A program made the translations under genes and the position numbers. From Clostridia bacterium (lineage in GTDB: Bacteria; Bacillota; Clostridia; UMGS1883), in assembly GCA_017505525.1 (NCBI GenBank), contig JAFVPB010000005.1:1-64000 (forward strand): a DNA stretch of 64,000 nucleotides. The letters are read 5' to 3'. Shown here piece by piece: positions 331 through 39,994 of this stretch. The notes under the pieces are model-generated. The model ran no database searches. It saw only the letters and a list, made by a program, of their open reading frames with translations, and was not told the DNA's origin. The first letter of the stretch is position 1, and every line of letters starts with the position of its first letter.

Positions 331-2415
331 TTACGCTTCAGGAAGAGTATCCTTTCTTGAGAAGTTGTATCTTCCCATACGGTCAATCTCAACAAGCATA
401 ACGTTAATCTGGTCGCCAACGTTTACAACATCAGTTACCTTTTCAACGCGGTTTCTGTCGAGCTTGCTTATATGAACAAGGCCTTCTTTTCCGGGAAGGT
501 ATTCTACAAATGCGCCAAAGTCCATAATCTTTGTAACTGTAGCCGAGAATACATCGCCGATTTCGATATCGCCTGCTATACCGCGAACAATCTTAAGTGC
601 ACGCTGTGCAGCATCGGAATCTGTTGTAGAGAAGAATACTGTACCGTCTTCCTCAATATCAATCTTAACGCCTGTATCAGCAACAATCTTCTGAATAACC
701 TTACCGCCACTGCCGATAACATCGCGGATTTTTTCAGGATCGATAGTTGTTGAAATAATCTTCGGAGCGTATTTTGAAAGCTCTTCTCTTGGCTCTGCAA
801 TGCACTTAAGCATACATTCATCAAGAATCATAAGACGAGCCTTTCTTGTTTTTTCAAGAGCTTCACGAATAATTTCTGGCTCTAAACCATCAATCTTAAT
901 ATCAACCTGAATAGCTGTGATACCATCTTTTGTACCTGCTACCTTAAAGTCCATATCGCCGAAGAAATCTTCAAGTCCCTGAATATCAACCATTGTGATA
1001 TATCTGTCGCCCTCTGTTACAAGACCGCAAGAGATACCTGCAACGGGTGCCTTAATCGGAACGCCTGCATCCATAAGAGCAAGTGTGCTTCCGCAGATAC
1101 TTCCCTGTGATGTTGAGCCGTTAGAGCTGAGCACCTCAGAAACAAGGCGGAGCGTATAGGGGAATTCTTCTTTTGAGGGAATTACAGGAACAAGCGCCTT
1201 TTCTGCAAGTGCACCGTGGCCGATTTCACGGCGTCCGGGGCCGCGGCTTGCTCTTGTTTCACCAACTGAATATGATGGGAAATTGTAGTGATGCATATAT
1301 CTCTTTGTTTCCTCATCATCGATTCCGTCAAGAAGCTGTTCTTCCGAAATCATACCAAGAGTACAGGTTGTAAGAACCTGAGTCTGTCCTCTTGTAAACA
1401 TACCGCTTCCGTGAGTTCTTGGAAGAAGACCAACCTCTGAAGCAAGGGGACGAACATCGTCAAGACCTCTGCCGTCAACACGCTTTCCTTCATCAAGAAT
1501 CCAACGTCTTACAACGTATTTCTGGAGCTTGTATATAGCCTCGTCAATCATAGCTTCCATTTCGGGATACTTTTCTGCGAGAGCTTCATAAACAAAGCTG
1601 TAAACTTCTTTAAGATTTTCTTCACGAACATTCTTATCGTCTGTGTCGAGTGCAATTCTTACCTTATCGATAGCGATTGCCTTAACATCCTCGTAAAGTT
1701 CTTCAGGAACTTCCATATGCTCGTATTCAAACTTGGGCTTTCCGATTTCAGCCTGAATGCCCTCGATAAATTCGCAGATTTTTGCGATTTCCTTGTGAGC
1801 TGCCATAATTCCTTCGAAAACAAGATCGTCAGGAACCTGGTTTGCACCGGCTTCAATCATATTAACCTTGTTCTTTGTTCCTGCGATTGTAAGGAACATT
1901 TCGCTCTTATCACGCTCTGCTTTTGTGGGGTTAACCACAACCTTACCATCTACAAGACCAACTGTTGCACCTGCAATCGGACCTGCAAAAGGAACAGAAG
2001 AGATGCTTATAGCAATTGAAGCACCTATCATAGCTGTAACCACAGGATCGTTATCGGGTTCAACACTCATAACTGTTGTAACAACTGCCACATCGTTTCT
2101 TAAATCCTTGGGGAAAAGAGGACGAATAGGGCGGTCGATACAACGGGAAGCAAGAATAGCCTTTTCTGTTGGGCGGCCTTCTCTCTTTAAAAAGCTTCCG
2201 GGGATTTTACCAACTGCATAGAGTTTTTCTTCGTAGTCAACTGCAAGAGGGAAAAAGTCTACTCCCTCACGTGGCTTAGCTGAAGCTGTTGCAGTTGCAT
2301 GAACAACTGTTTCGCCATAGCGAACAAGGCAGCTTCCGCCTGCAAGCTGAGCCATTTTACCTGTTTCAACAACAAGGGGACGTCCGCAAAATTCGGTTTC
2401 AAATGTTTTAAACAT
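331..2415 (-). CDS. pnp: polyribonucleotide nucleotidyltransferase (PNPase)
   Basis: A 3'-to-5' phosphorolytic exoribonuclease that degrades RNA to nucleoside diphosphates as a trimer, often within a degradosome. The 694-residue length is normal for the family. Two RNase PH-like domains (about 10-220 and 310-545) flank a helical linker. They are followed by a KH domain with the GSGG loop (about 555-615) and a C-terminal S1 domain (about 620-690, DFGAFVEYLPGKEGLVHIS). The ATG is preceded by TGGAGGT with good spacing. It lies downstream of rpsO on the same strand, the widely conserved order, separated by a processing-type hairpin. Identification is secure. Confidence 0.98.
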   Translation of the reverse strand: MFKTFETEFCGRPLVVETGKMAQLAGGSCLVRYGETVVHATATASAKPREGVDFFPLAVDYEEKLYAVGKIPGSFLKREGRPTEKAILASRCIDRPIRPLFPKDLRNDVAVVTTVMSVEPDNDPVVTAMIGASIAISISSVPFAGPIAGATVGLVDGKVVVNPTKAERDKSEMFLTIAGTKNKVNMIEAGANQVPDDLVFEGIMAAHKEIAKICEFIEGIQAEIGKPKFEYEHMEVPEELYEDVKAIAIDKVRIALDTDDKNVREENLKEVYSFVYEALAEKYPEMEAMIDEAIYKLQKYVVRRWILDEGKRVDGRGLDDVRPLASEVGLLPRTHGSGMFTRGQTQVLTTCTLGMISEEQLLDGIDDEETKRYMHHYNFPSYSVGETRASRGPGRREIGHGALAEKALVPVIPSKEEFPYTLRLVSEVLSSNGSTSQGSICGSTLALMDAGVPIKAPVAGISCGLVTEGDRYITMVDIQGLEDFFGDMDFKVAGTKDGITAIQVDIKIDGLEPEIIREALEKTRKARLMILDECMLKCIAEPREELSKYAPKIISTTIDPEKIRDVIGSGGKVIQKIVADTGVKIDIEEDGTVFFSTTDSDAAQRALKIVRGIAGDIEIGDVFSATVTKIMDFGAFVEYLPGKEGLVHISKLDRNRVEKVTDVVNVGDQINVMLVEIDRMGRYNFSRKDTLPEA

Positions 2416-35129: not shown

Positions 35130-35546
35130 TCAAAAAAATAGCAAAACACAAAAAAAGAAAACCGCCACTTTTGTGACGGTAAATGTTAATTGTTTGATTT
35201 TTCGGCATTTTGTTTTTGCTGTGTTTATGGATGAGATGAGGATTTTACGAATTGTTCCGCATTCGCTGTATATTTCTTTTGCCGTATCTCTGTCTAACAG
35301 TTCAGATTTGACGAAAAGTTCTAACCAATACTCTGTTTCGTAGCACTCTTTCAAAGCAATCTGTAATTTTGAAATAAAATCATTTTTACTATGAGCATAA
35401 TTAGCTTCATGAATGTTTGCACCTATTGACGTTCCACTACGTTCAAGCTGATTGGTAAGGGAATAATGTCCTTTAATGTTATCACATAATTTTATTATTT
35501 TTACAGAAAACTCAACTGATAAATTTCGCAATTTTGATTCAGCCAT
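35130..35546 (-). CDS. S23/bIVP-type four-helix-bundle protein
   Basis: A 138-residue protein of the S23 family ('23S rRNA intervening sequence protein', same fold as Avd of diversity-generating retroelements). Motifs are YSLTNQLERSGTSIGANIHEANYAHS and FISKLQIALKECYETEYWLEL. The family usually ends soon after INTAKTK, near residue 112. Here the frame runs about 25 residues further into a hydrophobic tail encoded by a terminator hairpin. AGGAG lies 11 nt before the ATG. A TAGACA-17-TATAAT promoter lies between the gene and a hairpin ladder. It is not inside an rRNA gene, so it probably acts with that element. Confidence 0.85.
   Translation of the reverse strand: MAESKLRNLSVEFSVKIIKLCDNIKGHYSLTNQLERSGTSIGANIHEANYAHSKNDFISKLQIALKECYETEYWLELFVKSELLDRDTAKEIYSECGTIRKILISSINTAKTKCRKIKQLTFTVTKVAVFFFCVLLFF
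35150..35180 (-). terminator. terminator embedded in the S23 3' end
   Basis: ACCGTCAC-aaaa-GTGGCGGT in the minus-strand RNA (stem 35161-35180), followed by TTTTCTTTTTTT. It lies before the annotated stop codon, so the last 10 codons are downstream of the stem. Confidence 0.75.
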
Positions 35547-35568
35547 ATCACATCAACTCCTCGAAATA

Positions 35569-35597
35569 TTATAGCACTAAAATTACAATTTGTCTAT
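35569..35597 (-). promoter_or_regulatory. promoter of the S23 gene
   Basis: On the minus strand TAGACA (35597-35592), a 17-nt spacer and TATAAT (35574-35569). The -35 box abuts the hairpin ladder. Confidence 0.72.
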
Positions 35598-35600
35598 ACG

Positions 35601-35771
35601 TGAAATATCAACTTCGTTGATGTGAAATAATTTCCTGCGGAAATTGTGAAATAGAAAACGAAGGTTTTCTGTGAAATGAAATACGCCTTTAACATTTGTG
35701 AAGCAAATATTTCACAGCGAAGCTATTTCACATTGCAAAGCAATATTTCACACGCCAAAAGGCGTATTTCG
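35601..35771. repeat. hairpin ladder with GTGAAAT / ATTTCAC rungs
   Basis: Four GTGAAAT copies (35601, 35623, 35647, 35672) are separated by three hairpins: ATCAACTTCGTTGAT, AATTTCCTGCGGAAATT and AGAAAACGAAGGTTTTCT. A capping hairpin (35695-35709) follows. Then come three ATTTCAC copies (35710, 35726, 35746) and a partial ATTTC (35767), separated by AGCGAAGCT, ATTGCAAAGCAAT and ACGCCAAAAGGCGT. The heptamers pair in nested order, so the whole folds as stacked four-way junctions with opposing side hairpins. GAAATACGCCTTT (35679) can alternatively pair with 35759-35771. The fold is nearly strand-symmetric. Confidence 0.85.
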
Positions 35772-35775
35772 TTGA

Positions 35776-35814
35776 AAAAACCGCCAATCTTGTATCAAGA
35801 TTGACGGTTTTTTC
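35776..35814 (+). terminator. bidirectional terminator after the ladder
   Basis: ACCGCCAATCTTG pairs with CAAGATTGACGGT round TAT (35781-35809), with A and T runs on both sides. Its ends ACCGCCA/TGACGGT match those of the hairpin at 35161-35180, so the two frame the S23-ladder element. A third related hairpin (TGAC/GTCA within AGCG...CGCT) is at 35822-35847. Confidence 0.8.
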
Positions 35815-35929
35815 TGTACGAGCGTGACGGTTTTACTGTCACCGCTATTTTTGCCAGTATTTATGCGGTTTTGAAAGGTTTTACCCTTATCAGTACCAAA
35901 GCATAATTTATGTCTTTTTGTTTGTTTTA

Positions 35930-35982: not shown

Positions 35983-37587
35983 TTACATGTTGACGGTGTA
36001 GGCATAATCTCCCGAGCAGATTCGCATTTCTTTTTTGGATACGATTTCAATTCTGTCGAACAGCATTCTGATATTGTCGTTTGCGAGTCTGTCAATTTCT
36101 TCAGGCATCTCATCGATGGTCTTGAAGATGGTTTTCAGTTTTTCGTGGTCGGCAGATTCTATTTGTCTCCGTTTTTCGTATGCATCATTTTCGTGGCGAA
36201 GCCTTAACTGCTCATCTCGGATTTCCGAGAAGATTTTGTCCATTTCCTCAATGCTGATTTCGCCGTCTAAGTTTTTGGTGAGAGTTTGACTCAATCTTTC
36301 GTTAAGCTCATTCATCCTTGCAGTATTTTCATTCATCTTATTTTGCATATTGTCACCCATGACCTCTGCGATAGCCCCTTTTAATATTTCCTTTGCATAT
36401 ACCATATCCGTTATCATAGAGTTTGCAGCTTCGGTTACTGCGGAGATTAGGAATTCTTCCTTTATGCTCGGCGAGTGTTTACATTTTTTAGTGCCGTGCT
36501 CGAGCCTGCTCATACATCTCCAGACATATTCCTTTTGCTTATCTCTTGTTACCCACATTGTTCGGCGGTATTTGGTTCCGCATTCTCCGCATACGATTAT
36601 GTTGTTGAAGGGGTACTTGCCGCTGTATTTGCCATAGTCGTTTTTATTCTCGTTCTTTTTAATACAGCTTCTTCGTCTGAGTTCAATCTGTACGGCATCG
36701 AACACCTCTCGGTCTATGATGGCAATATGATGATCTTTTATATAGAATTTTGGTAGTTCGCCTGTATTTTTCCTTGTCTTTTTGCTGATGGGATCGACTA
36801 CATATGTTTTTTGTGTCAGTACATCTCCTGCATATTTTTCGTTTACAAGAATTCTTTTCACGGCTTCAGTTTTCCATACAGTTTTTCCTGATGGAGATGG
36901 TATTTTTTCTTCTATAAGGGAGTCGGCAATTTCTCTCATACTGAGTCCTCTCTGGAATCTTGCAAATATGACTTTTACCGCAGCTGCCTGTTCGGGGACT
37001 ATGTATATGTTTTTTTCACCGTCCTGTCCGTATCCATATACTCGGTTGAAGTTAAAGCAAGCTTGTCCCTGACTGTATCTGGCGCGTTTTCCCATTTTTA
37101 CATTCAGGCTTTGGCTTTCGCTTTCCTGCTGTGCAAAGGTACTGTACATTGACAACAGAAATTCGCTTGACACTTCAAGGGTGTTGAGGTTTTCTTTTTC
37201 AAATATTATGCCAATGCCCATGAGTTTTAGCTTTCTTGCATATTCCAAGGTTACCGCTGTATTTCTTGAGAATCGGGATATTGATTTTGTGATTATTAAA
37301 TCAATTTTGCCTTGTTCGCACATTTTCATCATCCTGCGGAACGCCGGTCTTTTTTCAGCAGAGGTTCCTGTAATACCATCGTCACCGAATATCTCTACTA
37401 AATCCCATTCATCCTTAGCTTCAATCATTGATGTGTAATGCTCAACCTGATTTTCGAAGCTATCATGCTGTTCTTCTTCAGCAGTACTAACTCGGCAATA
37501 TGCTCCAACACTCAATTTCTTTCTTCCCATTTTTGGTTCATACATTTTTTTAGTTGCCGGAATTAATGTAACATTAGGTGCTGACAT
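35983..37587 (-). CDS. large serine recombinase
   Basis: A site-specific recombinase of about 534 residues. The N-terminal resolvase domain has the catalytic serine in YCRVS (about residue 34) and FGDDGITGTSAEKRPAFRRMM. A recombinase domain and a zinc ribbon follow (CGECGTKYRRTMW...WRCMSRLEHGTKKCKH), then a coiled coil (about 395-470). The start at 37587 was chosen over 37593 because GAGAGGG gives better spacing. It is the last of three recombinase-type genes. Such sets excise and integrate clostridial mobile elements. Confidence 0.94.
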   Translation of the reverse strand: MSAPNVTLIPATKKMYEPKMGRKKLSVGAYCRVSTAEEEQHDSFENQVEHYTSMIEAKDEWDLVEIFGDDGITGTSAEKRPAFRRMMKMCEQGKIDLIITKSISRFSRNTAVTLEYARKLKLMGIGIIFEKENLNTLEVSSEFLLSMYSTFAQQESESQSLNVKMGKRARYSQGQACFNFNRVYGYGQDGEKNIYIVPEQAAAVKVIFARFQRGLSMREIADSLIEEKIPSPSGKTVWKTEAVKRILVNEKYAGDVLTQKTYVVDPISKKTRKNTGELPKFYIKDHHIAIIDREVFDAVQIELRRRSCIKKNENKNDYGKYSGKYPFNNIIVCGECGTKYRRTMWVTRDKQKEYVWRCMSRLEHGTKKCKHSPSIKEEFLISAVTEAANSMITDMVYAKEILKGAIAEVMGDNMQNKMNENTARMNELNERLSQTLTKNLDGEISIEEMDKIFSEIRDEQLRLRHENDAYEKRRQIESADHEKLKTIFKTIDEMPEEIDRLANDNIRMLFDRIEIVSKKEMRICSGDYAYTVNM

Positions 37588-37589
37588 TT

Positions 37590-38453
37590 TCATCCCTCTC
37601 TTTCTAAAATTTTATCGTTTATCAGTTTTATCTTTAAGCCCTTTTCTCCGCCTATATAGAATTTTGATATTATTTTCTCCATCAGCGGAAGAGGGGCTTT
37701 TTCACTTATTCCGTACTTGCAAAGCTCCTGCTTAATTTTTTCGGTGACCTTGCTCATATCGGTTTTGGTATAGCTTTTGAATTTTAGTTTTGCAAGTCTG
37801 TATATATCCTTTAGGATTTCATCCTTTTCGGTGTTGTCATTTATGGTCTTGATATATATTTCATTGGTAAGCTCATCAATGTTTTCATCATTTCGGCTTT
37901 GATTTTTAACCTCTGCATCTGCAAGTTCGATATTATCTATAAGGCGGTTTACAATTCCGTTTATATATTCATACAAGATATCTTCGTGAATTGATTTCGT
38001 CGGGCATATCGGATTAGAGCATTTGTAAGCCGTATATGTACCCTTGTCGTGACCTTGCCTTTGTCTTTTGATAGAAAATCCGCATTTAGGGCATTGGGCG
38101 TGAGTTCGTATAAATTTGTCATAATCCATTTTGTCGCTGTCTGCCTTTATATTCTTGGAGAGCCTTACACGGTTTGCCTTGTGATACTGCTTTTCGTCTA
38201 TGATAGGCGGATATTCATCTGTGCCTGTATATTTTTCATTTTCTATCATCCGCTTAACCATATTTTTATTCCATTTTGCAGAATCCTTGTTGTAGTAAAT
38301 CCCTGACATTTCAAATCTGTCGGCTATCGTCTTATAGGATTTGCCTGCTATGTATAATTCAAAGGCAGATTTCACAAGTAACGCTTCCTGATTTACAATA
38401 ACGATTTCGGCATTTTGTATTTCGTAGCCGAAGGGTATGTATCTGTTAGCCAT
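37590..38453 (-). CDS. recombinase-like protein lacking the catalytic domain
   Basis: A 287-residue protein that begins directly with the 'recombinase' DNA-binding domain (YIPFGYEIQNAEIVI, SYKTIADRFEMSG, WNKNMVKRMIENEKYTGTDEY). It continues with a zinc ribbon (CPKCGFSIKRQ...YKCSNPICPTKS) and a helical tail. The resolvase domain with its catalytic Ser is absent, so it cannot cut DNA itself. It probably serves as an accessory or directionality partner to the flanking recombinases. AGGAGGT precedes the ATG. The gene starts 2 nt after the upstream recombinase stop. Confidence 0.88.
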   Translation of the reverse strand: MANRYIPFGYEIQNAEIVIVNQEALLVKSAFELYIAGKSYKTIADRFEMSGIYYNKDSAKWNKNMVKRMIENEKYTGTDEYPPIIDEKQYHKANRVRLSKNIKADSDKMDYDKFIRTHAQCPKCGFSIKRQRQGHDKGTYTAYKCSNPICPTKSIHEDILYEYINGIVNRLIDNIELADAEVKNQSRNDENIDELTNEIYIKTINDNTEKDEILKDIYRLAKLKFKSYTKTDMSKVTEKIKQELCKYGISEKAPLPLMEKIISKFYIGGEKGLKIKLINDKILEREG

Positions 38454-38455
38454 TT

Positions 38456-39994
38456 TTAAAGCACCTCCTGTTTTTCAATCTCAAGCTCAATTTCGTTCTT
38501 CAGCACAAAGGTGATTTCATTGTCTGTTATGTATACTTTCTGTATGTGCCTTTTGAAGCCTTCGGTATCGAAGGTGCAGATGGAATCACTTTTTTCAAGC
38601 TCCTTTACAAGTCCTTTTGTGTCAGTAACTATTTTGCTGTACCGATTCTCATGTAGGATTTTATTTTTCCTTGCCTTTAGTTCCATCATTCTGCGGTCGC
38701 ATTCATTTAATTCCTGCATATAAAATGACGGATCGGCAAGGTTGTTATCCTTGAGCCTGTTTATCATCATAACCCTTTCGGACACCTGTGCTATCTGTAT
38801 GTTAAGTTCGGTGATGGCATCCTTTTCAGACTGATTGTTTTTCATTGCCTCAATCTGATTGATAAAGGGGATGAGGATGTGCTTGTAGTTTGCTTTCAGT
38901 CTGTTGTACATAAGGATGTATGCCTTTTTGATAAGCTCTTCGGTTACGGGCTGGGCATTACATTTTTCTATACTTACATCGTGAGTTCTGCAGGTCCAGA
39001 CTCCGTCACCCTTATGCTTGTATGGTGTACCGCAGTTTTTGCAGTATATCATTTTAGTAAATATTCCGGCATCTCCATAAGTTTTGTGAGTAAATTTTTT
39101 CTGCCTTTTTTCAAGGAGAGCTTTTGCCATATCGAAAATCTCGGCGGATACTATCGGCTCATTTACATTATGCAGATAATACATATCAAGCTCGCCTGTA
39201 TTTTTGATTTTCTTAAACGGGAAACCGTCTGTGTATGATTTCTGCAAAAGAGCATCACCCTTGTATCGTACATTGCTTATGATGTAGCTGATAGCAGAGG
39301 GAGACCATTTTTCTTTTCCGTTTTTATTGGGTATTTTTAATTCCGTAAGCATTTTTGCAATTTCAGTAGTGCCTTTTCCTGCAATATACTCTGTGAATAT
39401 TTTTCTAACTACTTCGGCCTGTTCTTCGTTGATTATAAGTTGTTTATCTTTGTAACTGTAGCCATAAGGAGCATTTACCTGAATGTAGGTTCCGTTTCGC
39501 ATTTTGTTTCTTGTGCCGATTCTTACATTCAGTGCAATGGACTGTGATTCTTCCTGTGCAAGTGCCGAACTAACCTTTATTGCGGCTGCATCTGTCGGGG
39601 TAGAGGTGTTGAGACCGCCATCTTCAAATTTCACTGCCACTCCAAGCTTGTTAAGCTTTTCTACGGCTCTTATACAGTCAACGGTATTTCTTGCAAATCT
39701 TGATATGGATTTTACAACGATAAGATCGAGCTTGCCGTCCTCTGCATCCTGAATCATTCGGTTGAAGTCATCACGCTTGTCCTGTCTGGTGCCGGTGATG
39801 CCTTCGTCTGCATATATATCTACGAATTCCCATTCGTGATTGGATGTGATATATTTTGTGTAGTACCGAACCTGGTTGTGGAAGGAGTCTTCCTGCTCAA
39901 GAGAGTTGGAACTCACTCTGGCATAGGCACCGACACGAAGTCTTTGTTTTTCAGTTTTTCTTAAATCGCTTTGTATTACAATAACTTCTGACAT
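38456..39994 (-). CDS. large serine recombinase
   Basis: A 512-residue serine integrase-type protein. Catalytic Ser28 is in YARVS, followed by DSFHNQVRYYTKYI, YADEGITGTRQDKRDDFNRMI and VVKSISRFARNTVDCI. A recombinase domain (YGYSYKDKQLIINEEQAEVVRKIF), zinc ribbon (CKNCGTPYKHKGDGVWTCRTHDV) and coiled coil follow. It is the first catalytic gene of the three-gene set. GAAAGGAG precedes the ATG. The order catalytic, non-catalytic, catalytic is typical of clostridial elements. Confidence 0.94.
   Translation of the reverse strand: MSEVIVIQSDLRKTEKQRLRVGAYARVSSNSLEQEDSFHNQVRYYTKYITSNHEWEFVDIYADEGITGTRQDKRDDFNRMIQDAEDGKLDLIVVKSISRFARNTVDCIRAVEKLNKLGVAVKFEDGGLNTSTPTDAAAIKVSSALAQEESQSIALNVRIGTRNKMRNGTYIQVNAPYGYSYKDKQLIINEEQAEVVRKIFTEYIAGKGTTEIAKMLTELKIPNKNGKEKWSPSAISYIISNVRYKGDALLQKSYTDGFPFKKIKNTGELDMYYLHNVNEPIVSAEIFDMAKALLEKRQKKFTHKTYGDAGIFTKMIYCKNCGTPYKHKGDGVWTCRTHDVSIEKCNAQPVTEELIKKAYILMYNRLKANYKHILIPFINQIEAMKNNQSEKDAITELNIQIAQVSERVMMINRLKDNNLADPSFYMQELNECDRRMMELKARKNKILHENRYSKIVTDTKGLVKELEKSDSICTFDTEGFKRHIQKVYITDNEITFVLKNEIELEIEKQEVL

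Follow-up and report, generated by a model that had tools for sequence, protein, structure and literature searches.

The locus described here raises the question of why a short gene of the S23 family lies directly beside an array of identical heptamers separated by hairpins, and whether gene and array belong together. It lies in a stretch of 64,000 nucleotides (the window) from a Clostridia bacterium, and probably represents, in complete form, a widespread class of mobile element that combines an S23 gene with inverted heptamer arrays of lineage-specific sequence.

The S23 gene and ladder array of the window

The S23 (23S rRNA-intervening-sequence protein) gene occupies positions 35130 to 35546 of the minus strand and encodes 138 amino acids, with a C-terminus ~20 residues longer than in its relatives. 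In a profile search the protein matched PF05635 at 5e-26 (91.4 bits; cut-off 33.8). The AlphaFold model (pLDDT 90) predicts a four-helix bundle of the S23/Avd fold, and ranks the S23 structures 2RLD (TM 0.74/0.90) and XCC0516 (2GSC) first, followed by Avd 4DWL (TM 0.68/0.86) and the diversity-generating retroelement (DGR) complex 8UB7; the match to Avd upholds the fold named in the first-pass annotation of this DNA. The entries 2RLD and 2GSC each contain five chains, and the Xanthomonas relative is reported to be a homopentamer (PMC4990558).

Positions 35598 to 35774 hold seven exact heptamers plus one partial copy, as had been noted earlier. GTGAAAT is found on the plus strand at 35600, 35622, 35646 and 35671, and ATTTCAC at 35709, 35725 and 35745; the partial copy reads ATTTCG and lies at 35766. 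Each gap between heptamers is a hairpin, and the hairpin sequences all differ. Seven of the 18 copies of the heptamer in the window are packed into 152 nt, while the total for the whole window is ordinary (14.7 expected).

Read in the sense of the S23 gene (minus strand), the outer end of the array is marked by a terminator-like hairpin with A and T tracts (AAAACCGCCAATCTTG...CAAGATTGACGGTTTT, 35777 to 35811, strand unassigned), the equivalent of which stands before the array in all five copies in the source genome. The left half (35704 to 35774) follows, with CAACGAAAT, a hairpin, and three GTGAAAT words with hairpins between them. The center contains the capping hairpin ATTTGCTTCACAAAT (35694 to 35708), identified from the sequence and the DNA fold, and the strand x'' (GGCGTATTTC, 35678 to 35687), which is complementary to the first strand of the array, x. 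The right half (35600 to 35677) is composed of four ATTTCAC words and three hairpins (35607-35621, 35629-35645 and 35653-35670). Directly after it comes a promoter-like sequence, TAGACA-17-TATAAT (35568 to 35596, minus strand; 11 of 12 matches, with a TG extension), and then the S23 gene. When the S23-sense strand was folded as single-stranded DNA, the stacked four-way-junction ladder that had been proposed from heptamer pairing was recovered (−35.2 kcal/mol, z −6.8, 0/200 shuffles as good); folded as RNA, the array adopts a structure other than the ladder (z −5.8).

Hairpins with ACCGCCA/TGACGGT ends had also been proposed to frame gene and ladder. Both are terminator-like, and the one on the S23 side, within the end of the extended reading frame (35161 to 35180, minus strand), is kept in a 92%-identical relative (L320), but the paired frame is absent as a shared feature elsewhere. 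Beside the element, at 35983 to 39994, serine recombinases of 536, 287 and 512 aa are encoded by three genes in a row, and the second of them showed no match to the resolvase N-domain; the trio resembles a site-specific excision or integration cassette.

S23 genes are paired with heptamer arrays across genomes

Only one of the four S23 genes in the source genome lies near a GTGAAAT array, and S23 was suspected at one point of being a coincidental neighbor. That reading was dropped because the other three genes have arrays of other words: all four carry an array directly upstream, built on GTGAAAT (window), AGCTAAAT (two genes) or ATGAAGC. Related genomes of the order add the words ATGAATT, ATGATAT, TCGATAT, GTGAAGTT, GTGGTAT and GTGAAATC/ATGAAATC, and nearly all S23 genes of the order adjoin a mirror-image array of their own word, as was to be looked for if the heptamer-hairpin arrays belong with S23. 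Two human-gut phage scaffolds share the arrangement.

The pairing was quantified over a set of 55 S23 genes, drawn from the order and from 249 phylum genomes; because the repeat thresholds were fixed after a first inspection, effect sizes outweigh exact probabilities. A 7-mer present at least five times, counting both strands, in the 350 nt upstream was found at 19/55 genes, compared with 0/51 and 2/56 control windows of the same loci and 21/1100 dinucleotide shuffles. Beyond the order, most arrays consist of plain tandem heptamers. With tandem repeats scored as at least 18/21 matches at a given lag, lag 7 was observed at 10/55 upstream and 12/57 downstream flanks, and every other lag from 4 to 12 at none, except lag 11 (two upstream, one downstream). 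The background for lag 7 was 32 of 2965 windows, in a set itself picked for heptamer matches. Inverted 8-mers common to both flanks were present at 37/55 loci, against 6/55 for a displaced control. With the threshold set to 17/21, plasmid loci from cyanobacteria, Treponema, Bernardetia and Chlorohelix, taken together with the two phage scaffolds, showed lag 7 in 8/16 flanks upstream and 9/16 downstream, compared with 2/64 controls. Inverted tandem heptamers often flank S23 in Bacillota beyond the order, in cyanobacteria, in one spirochaete, in one member of the Bacteroidota and on a Chloroflexota plasmid, and some of the genes so flanked sit inside 23S rRNA or RNase P RNA.

Two loci (L115 with ATTTCAC, L068 with GTGAAAT-like words) have plain tandem heptamers beside S23, with hairpins absent, and link the tandem and ladder forms. 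A GTGAAAT scan also returned inverted AATTCGTGAAAT-like arrays that lack hairpins (L158, 58-274; L168, 148-513). They may constitute another class of array, and neither stretch yielded an S23 gene.

Heptamer words follow the S23 protein tree

Ten word classes were mapped onto an IQ-TREE tree of 27 S23 proteins. They require 10 changes (minimum 9), compared with a shuffled mean of 17.1, and 0/200 shuffles were as low. Sister lineages have similar words (ATGATAT/ATGAATT, GTGGTAT/GTGATAT and GTGAAAT/GTGAAATC), and the GTGAAAT and AGCTAAAT genes of the source genome cluster by word with S23 genes of other genomes and apart from each other. Because the word follows the tree, and gene and array are neighbors, the two behave as a single inherited unit. 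That S23 protein and array form one small element had been the central proposal of the first-pass annotation, and it is borne out by the order-wide pairing, this agreement and the stem covariation given below; gene and arrays almost certainly constitute one genetic unit. The joint change of all word copies in an array suggests recognition by the protein. Linkage by itself would also yield agreement between word and tree, which counts against the recognition reading.

The same data bear on whether S23 is a passenger, with slippage growing the heptamers, template switching the hairpins, and an unrelated reverse transcriptase or site-specific recombinase mobilizing the whole. Heptamer repeats are common in bacteria, slippage has been proposed for them (PMC4692102), and recombinase genes do adjoin the window copy. 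However, period 7 is nearly exclusive at S23 flanks, the words stay constant while the hairpins diverge, and they change along S23 lineages. No RVT_1 reverse transcriptase was found in the source genome (95% complete); a reverse transcriptase in cis was rejected on this ground, and a DGR-like mechanism would have to rely on some other polymerase or nuclease. We therefore consider a passenger role very improbable. Elsewhere, weak PF05635 matches adjoin reverse transcriptase genes at three loci (L297, L298 and L319; G003:C51, G001:C99 and G011:C9); such low-scoring matches are probably true DGR Avds, distinct from the array-linked S23. A single close S23 relative was found on viral contigs.

The Gut-1 match, and the DNA or RNA form of the array

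The left half of the window array (35704 to 35774, minus strand) corresponds to the Rfam family RF01706, Gut-1 (70.5 bits; cut-off 50). Its counterpart on the S23 side gives a weak match to an inverted Gut-1 (38.6 bits, 35575 to 35657, plus strand). Gut-1 was reported as a candidate noncoding RNA from human gut metagenomes, with no function assigned (Weinberg 2010, PMC2864571). The array is thus in part an already described repeat, but the Gut-1 entry carries neither a function nor a link to S23. A search of the 249 phylum genomes for Gut-1 found 2, so the GTGAAAT form has a narrow distribution and the pairing of S23 with heptamers a broad one. Gut-1 arrays also occur in several genomes of the genus that have no S23 gene, and the GCGATAT arrays of the source genome have no cognate S23, which indicates that arrays persist without the gene.

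Covarying stems, which the first-pass annotation had put forward as a check, are evident in 29 aligned arrays. Over three helices, 94.7% of cells are paired and 18 of 23 pairs show double changes, giving a covariation score of 0.66 compared with 0.18 for shuffled alignments and at most 0.17 for slid partners. Helix 1, formed by x with the central x'', is paired in 99.7% of cells, with double changes at 6/11 pairs. The strand x pairs with its own hairpin arm in 28/29 arrays and with the center in 27/29, two pairings that are mutually exclusive. The stems could owe part of their perfection to palindrome-correcting DNA synthesis, which is likewise a DNA-level process.

Strong covariation and the Rfam match would be expected if the array were a structured noncoding RNA (Gut-1) and S23 its binding partner, in a ribonucleoprotein that regulates or protects the RNA. 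The related Avd belongs to an RNA-containing complex (8UB7), S23 elements are found in RNA genes, and RNase III cleaves the terminal stems of these elements (PMC4990558). Selection on RNA should, however, clearly favor G-U pairs, and ~1225 stem pairs include 6 G-U and 8 A-C; by this indirect test, the G-U tolerance expected of Gut-1 functioning as RNA is absent. The loops point the same way. GNA or GNNA accounts for 81/134 second-half loops and TNC or TNNC for 62/94 first-half loops, and tandem G-A mismatches number 19 versus 0, so the favored loops always lie on the strand bearing ATTTCAC; GNRA accounts for a minority of the tetraloops. In DNA, C(GNA)G and C(GNNA)G are known as stable loops. 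UNCG tetraloops of RNA were considered and rejected, since the closing pair identifies them as C(TNC)G triloops, which read as GNA on the opposite strand. Finally, the S23 promoter follows the array, both in the window and at other loci. Some arrays are probably transcribed, yet an RNA–protein role for the array is unlikely. Covariation, the near absence of G-U and DNA-type loops on one defined strand favor a DNA structure over a noncoding RNA, as does the ladder obtained on folding the array as DNA, and DNA is likely to be the acting form.

Dispersed array copies, and S23 insertions in structured-RNA genes

The source genome contains five two-armed GTGAAAT arrays, together with arrays of the same plan based on AGCTAAAT, GCGATAT or TCGATAT. 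Two AGCTAAAT copies are 89% identical, and three GCGATAT copies are 95-99% identical over ~180 bp with 200-bp flanks at or slightly above the random level. Near-identical copies in near-random flanks indicate that array-only copies disperse. Several stand directly behind the terminator of a tRNA gene. A search of 21 family genomes for the empty orthologous site of one ladder copy of the source genome, using its joined flanks, gave no contiguous match because the genomes are too diverged. The sequence GCATCTAAAC, often extended as CTTATGTGTCGCAAT, occurs 12 times in the source genome (L355-L366; reversed-pattern control, 1). It was dropped as a universal element end, being present at most array copies of this genome but also alone; it may mark the end of an element or be a hairpin repeat in its own right.

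S23 is surrounded by 23S rRNA at four loci (L334, L339, L343 and L347), and the L343 insertion has TTCGANN heptamers at its edges. RNase P RNA surrounds S23 at L341 and L344, where, in two related species, an S23 gene with heptamer arms lies in a hairpin loop (1229-2003, minus strand). One RNase P hairpin of L341, taken to be P12 (model positions 136/141), has the insertion in place of its loop, and the remaining RNase P RNA is intact. One further locus lies behind tmRNA (L299) and three behind tRNA genes (L304-L306). Plasmid neighborhoods (L368, L373, L376 and L377) place S23 between helicase-related and DNA methylase genes in two phyla (with one extra gene between at L368), between DUF1156 and a HEPN gene, and between cas2 and cas1; these contexts would fit a preference in insertion or, alternatively, a function of S23 in defense loci.

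Position relative to the S23 gene could instead suggest that S23 is an autoregulator and the array its operator, with array-only copies serving as decoys or as tuners of neighboring terminators and promoters. Both arms lie upstream of S23 in 14 of the 18 inspected ladder loci, the array directly precedes the S23 promoter or start codon in as many, and many copies stand behind tRNA terminators. However, the arms are split around the gene at L303, L307 and L309, intermediate forms with one arm upstream and one downstream, and they flank S23 in most loci elsewhere in the phylum. Autoregulation also fails to explain why copies are dispersed and why some insertions lie within the genes for 23S and RNase P RNA, and we regard it as improbable. 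Two points tell against the mobile-element reading: S23 has no known catalytic site, and no mobilizing enzyme was identified for the array elements. Of the first-pass reading of a mobile or regulatory element acting as RNA or DNA, the mobility is well supported and the RNA option is the less likely one. The element is very likely mobile; whether S23 is needed for movement is evenly balanced.

A model for S23 elements

In its simple form the proposed element is an S23 gene between tandem heptamers arranged as inverted repeats. In the form typical of this order, a DNA hairpin is set between successive heptamers, and the arms usually stand together upstream of the gene, an arrangement in which the array can also spread without S23. 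The data above show the association, the joint inheritance of word and protein, the covariation, the dispersal and the insertion sites; from these we infer binding, the DNA form in the cell and a role in movement as follows. An S23 ring, pentameric as in the solved relatives, would bind heptamers at about one per subunit with the hairpins looped out, and we lean toward such binding being specific. The hairpins would form in DNA, as a cruciform or in single strands, and their conserved GNA/GNNA loops would be read on the strand bearing the ATTTCAC-type word. The complex may then pair both arms and help to insert copies of the element, with enzymes supplied by the cell, at preferred targets predicted to be hairpins of structured-RNA genes (rRNA, an RNase P loop) or sites beside tRNA and tmRNA terminators. 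More tentatively, and with somewhat less than even confidence, S23 proteins might be sequence-specific readers of heptamer arrays that organize a bacteria-wide class of hairpin-seeking mobile DNA. Such a class would take in rRNA intervening sequences (IVSs), the insertions in RNase P, Gut-1, and heptanucleotide repeats that so far have no owner, in cyanobacteria and elsewhere.

The function of S23 and the spread of IVSs have been open questions since IVSs were discovered in about 1990, and a 2016 Coxiella paper still called the function of the protein unknown (PMC4990558). With a cognate word available for every S23 lineage, direct tests of binding, specificity and mobility become possible. 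If the model is correct, several unexplained families of heptanucleotide repeats would gain an owner, and an Rfam RNA would be reclassified as part of a probable DNA element.

Relationship to known systems

The S23 family, IVSs, Gut-1 and heptanucleotide repeats are each already known singly; S23 linked to heptamer arrays as a general rule was not found in the open-access literature, a body that excludes most subscription journals and preprints. The rRNA IVSs of Leptospira and Coxiella share with the present elements an S23 gene, terminal inverted repeats and selfish behavior. Heptamers are shared as well, in one rRNA insertion of this analysis and in Coxiella, where tandem GACAGAT heptamers before the S23 reading frame were noted without interpretation (PMC4990558). 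In contrast to an IVS, the window copy is intergenic, its heptamers are separated by hairpins and array-only copies are dispersed; no rRNA was found in the window, so this is an S23-bearing element and not an IVS. Gut-1 resembles the array in that one half matches RF01706, but it covers that single half and is catalogued as RNA, with no link to S23 or to an inverted second half in the portions of the original report considered (PMC2864571). The heptanucleotide repeats of cyanobacteria, Xanthomonas and Beggiatoa are tandem 7-nt units, often inverted and intergenic, described without an associated S23 (PMC4692102, PMC4679880). We infer their link to S23 from the plasmid loci.

REP/BIME sequences with their RAYT are word-plus-hairpin units that occur in inverted pairs, are dispersed between genes and relate to a single gene, features that the S23 arrays share. 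In contrast to RAYT, S23 is a four-helix bundle and not a Y1 HUH nuclease, and its units hold many words and hairpins; no Y1 HUH transposase was recognized on reading the ORFs beside the inspected copies. Integron attC arrays resemble S23 arrays in word lengths only.

DGRs with Avd have the homologous fold, but the S23 array loci lack a reverse transcriptase, template or variable repeat, and S23 would be a simple relative of the Avd system that works without reverse transcriptase. The BPP-1 DGR target requires a DNA hairpin or cruciform in which the stem sequence is free and the loop is 5'-GRNA (PMC3240598), and this grammar, a free stem with a conserved G..A loop, is the same as that of the S23 array hairpins.
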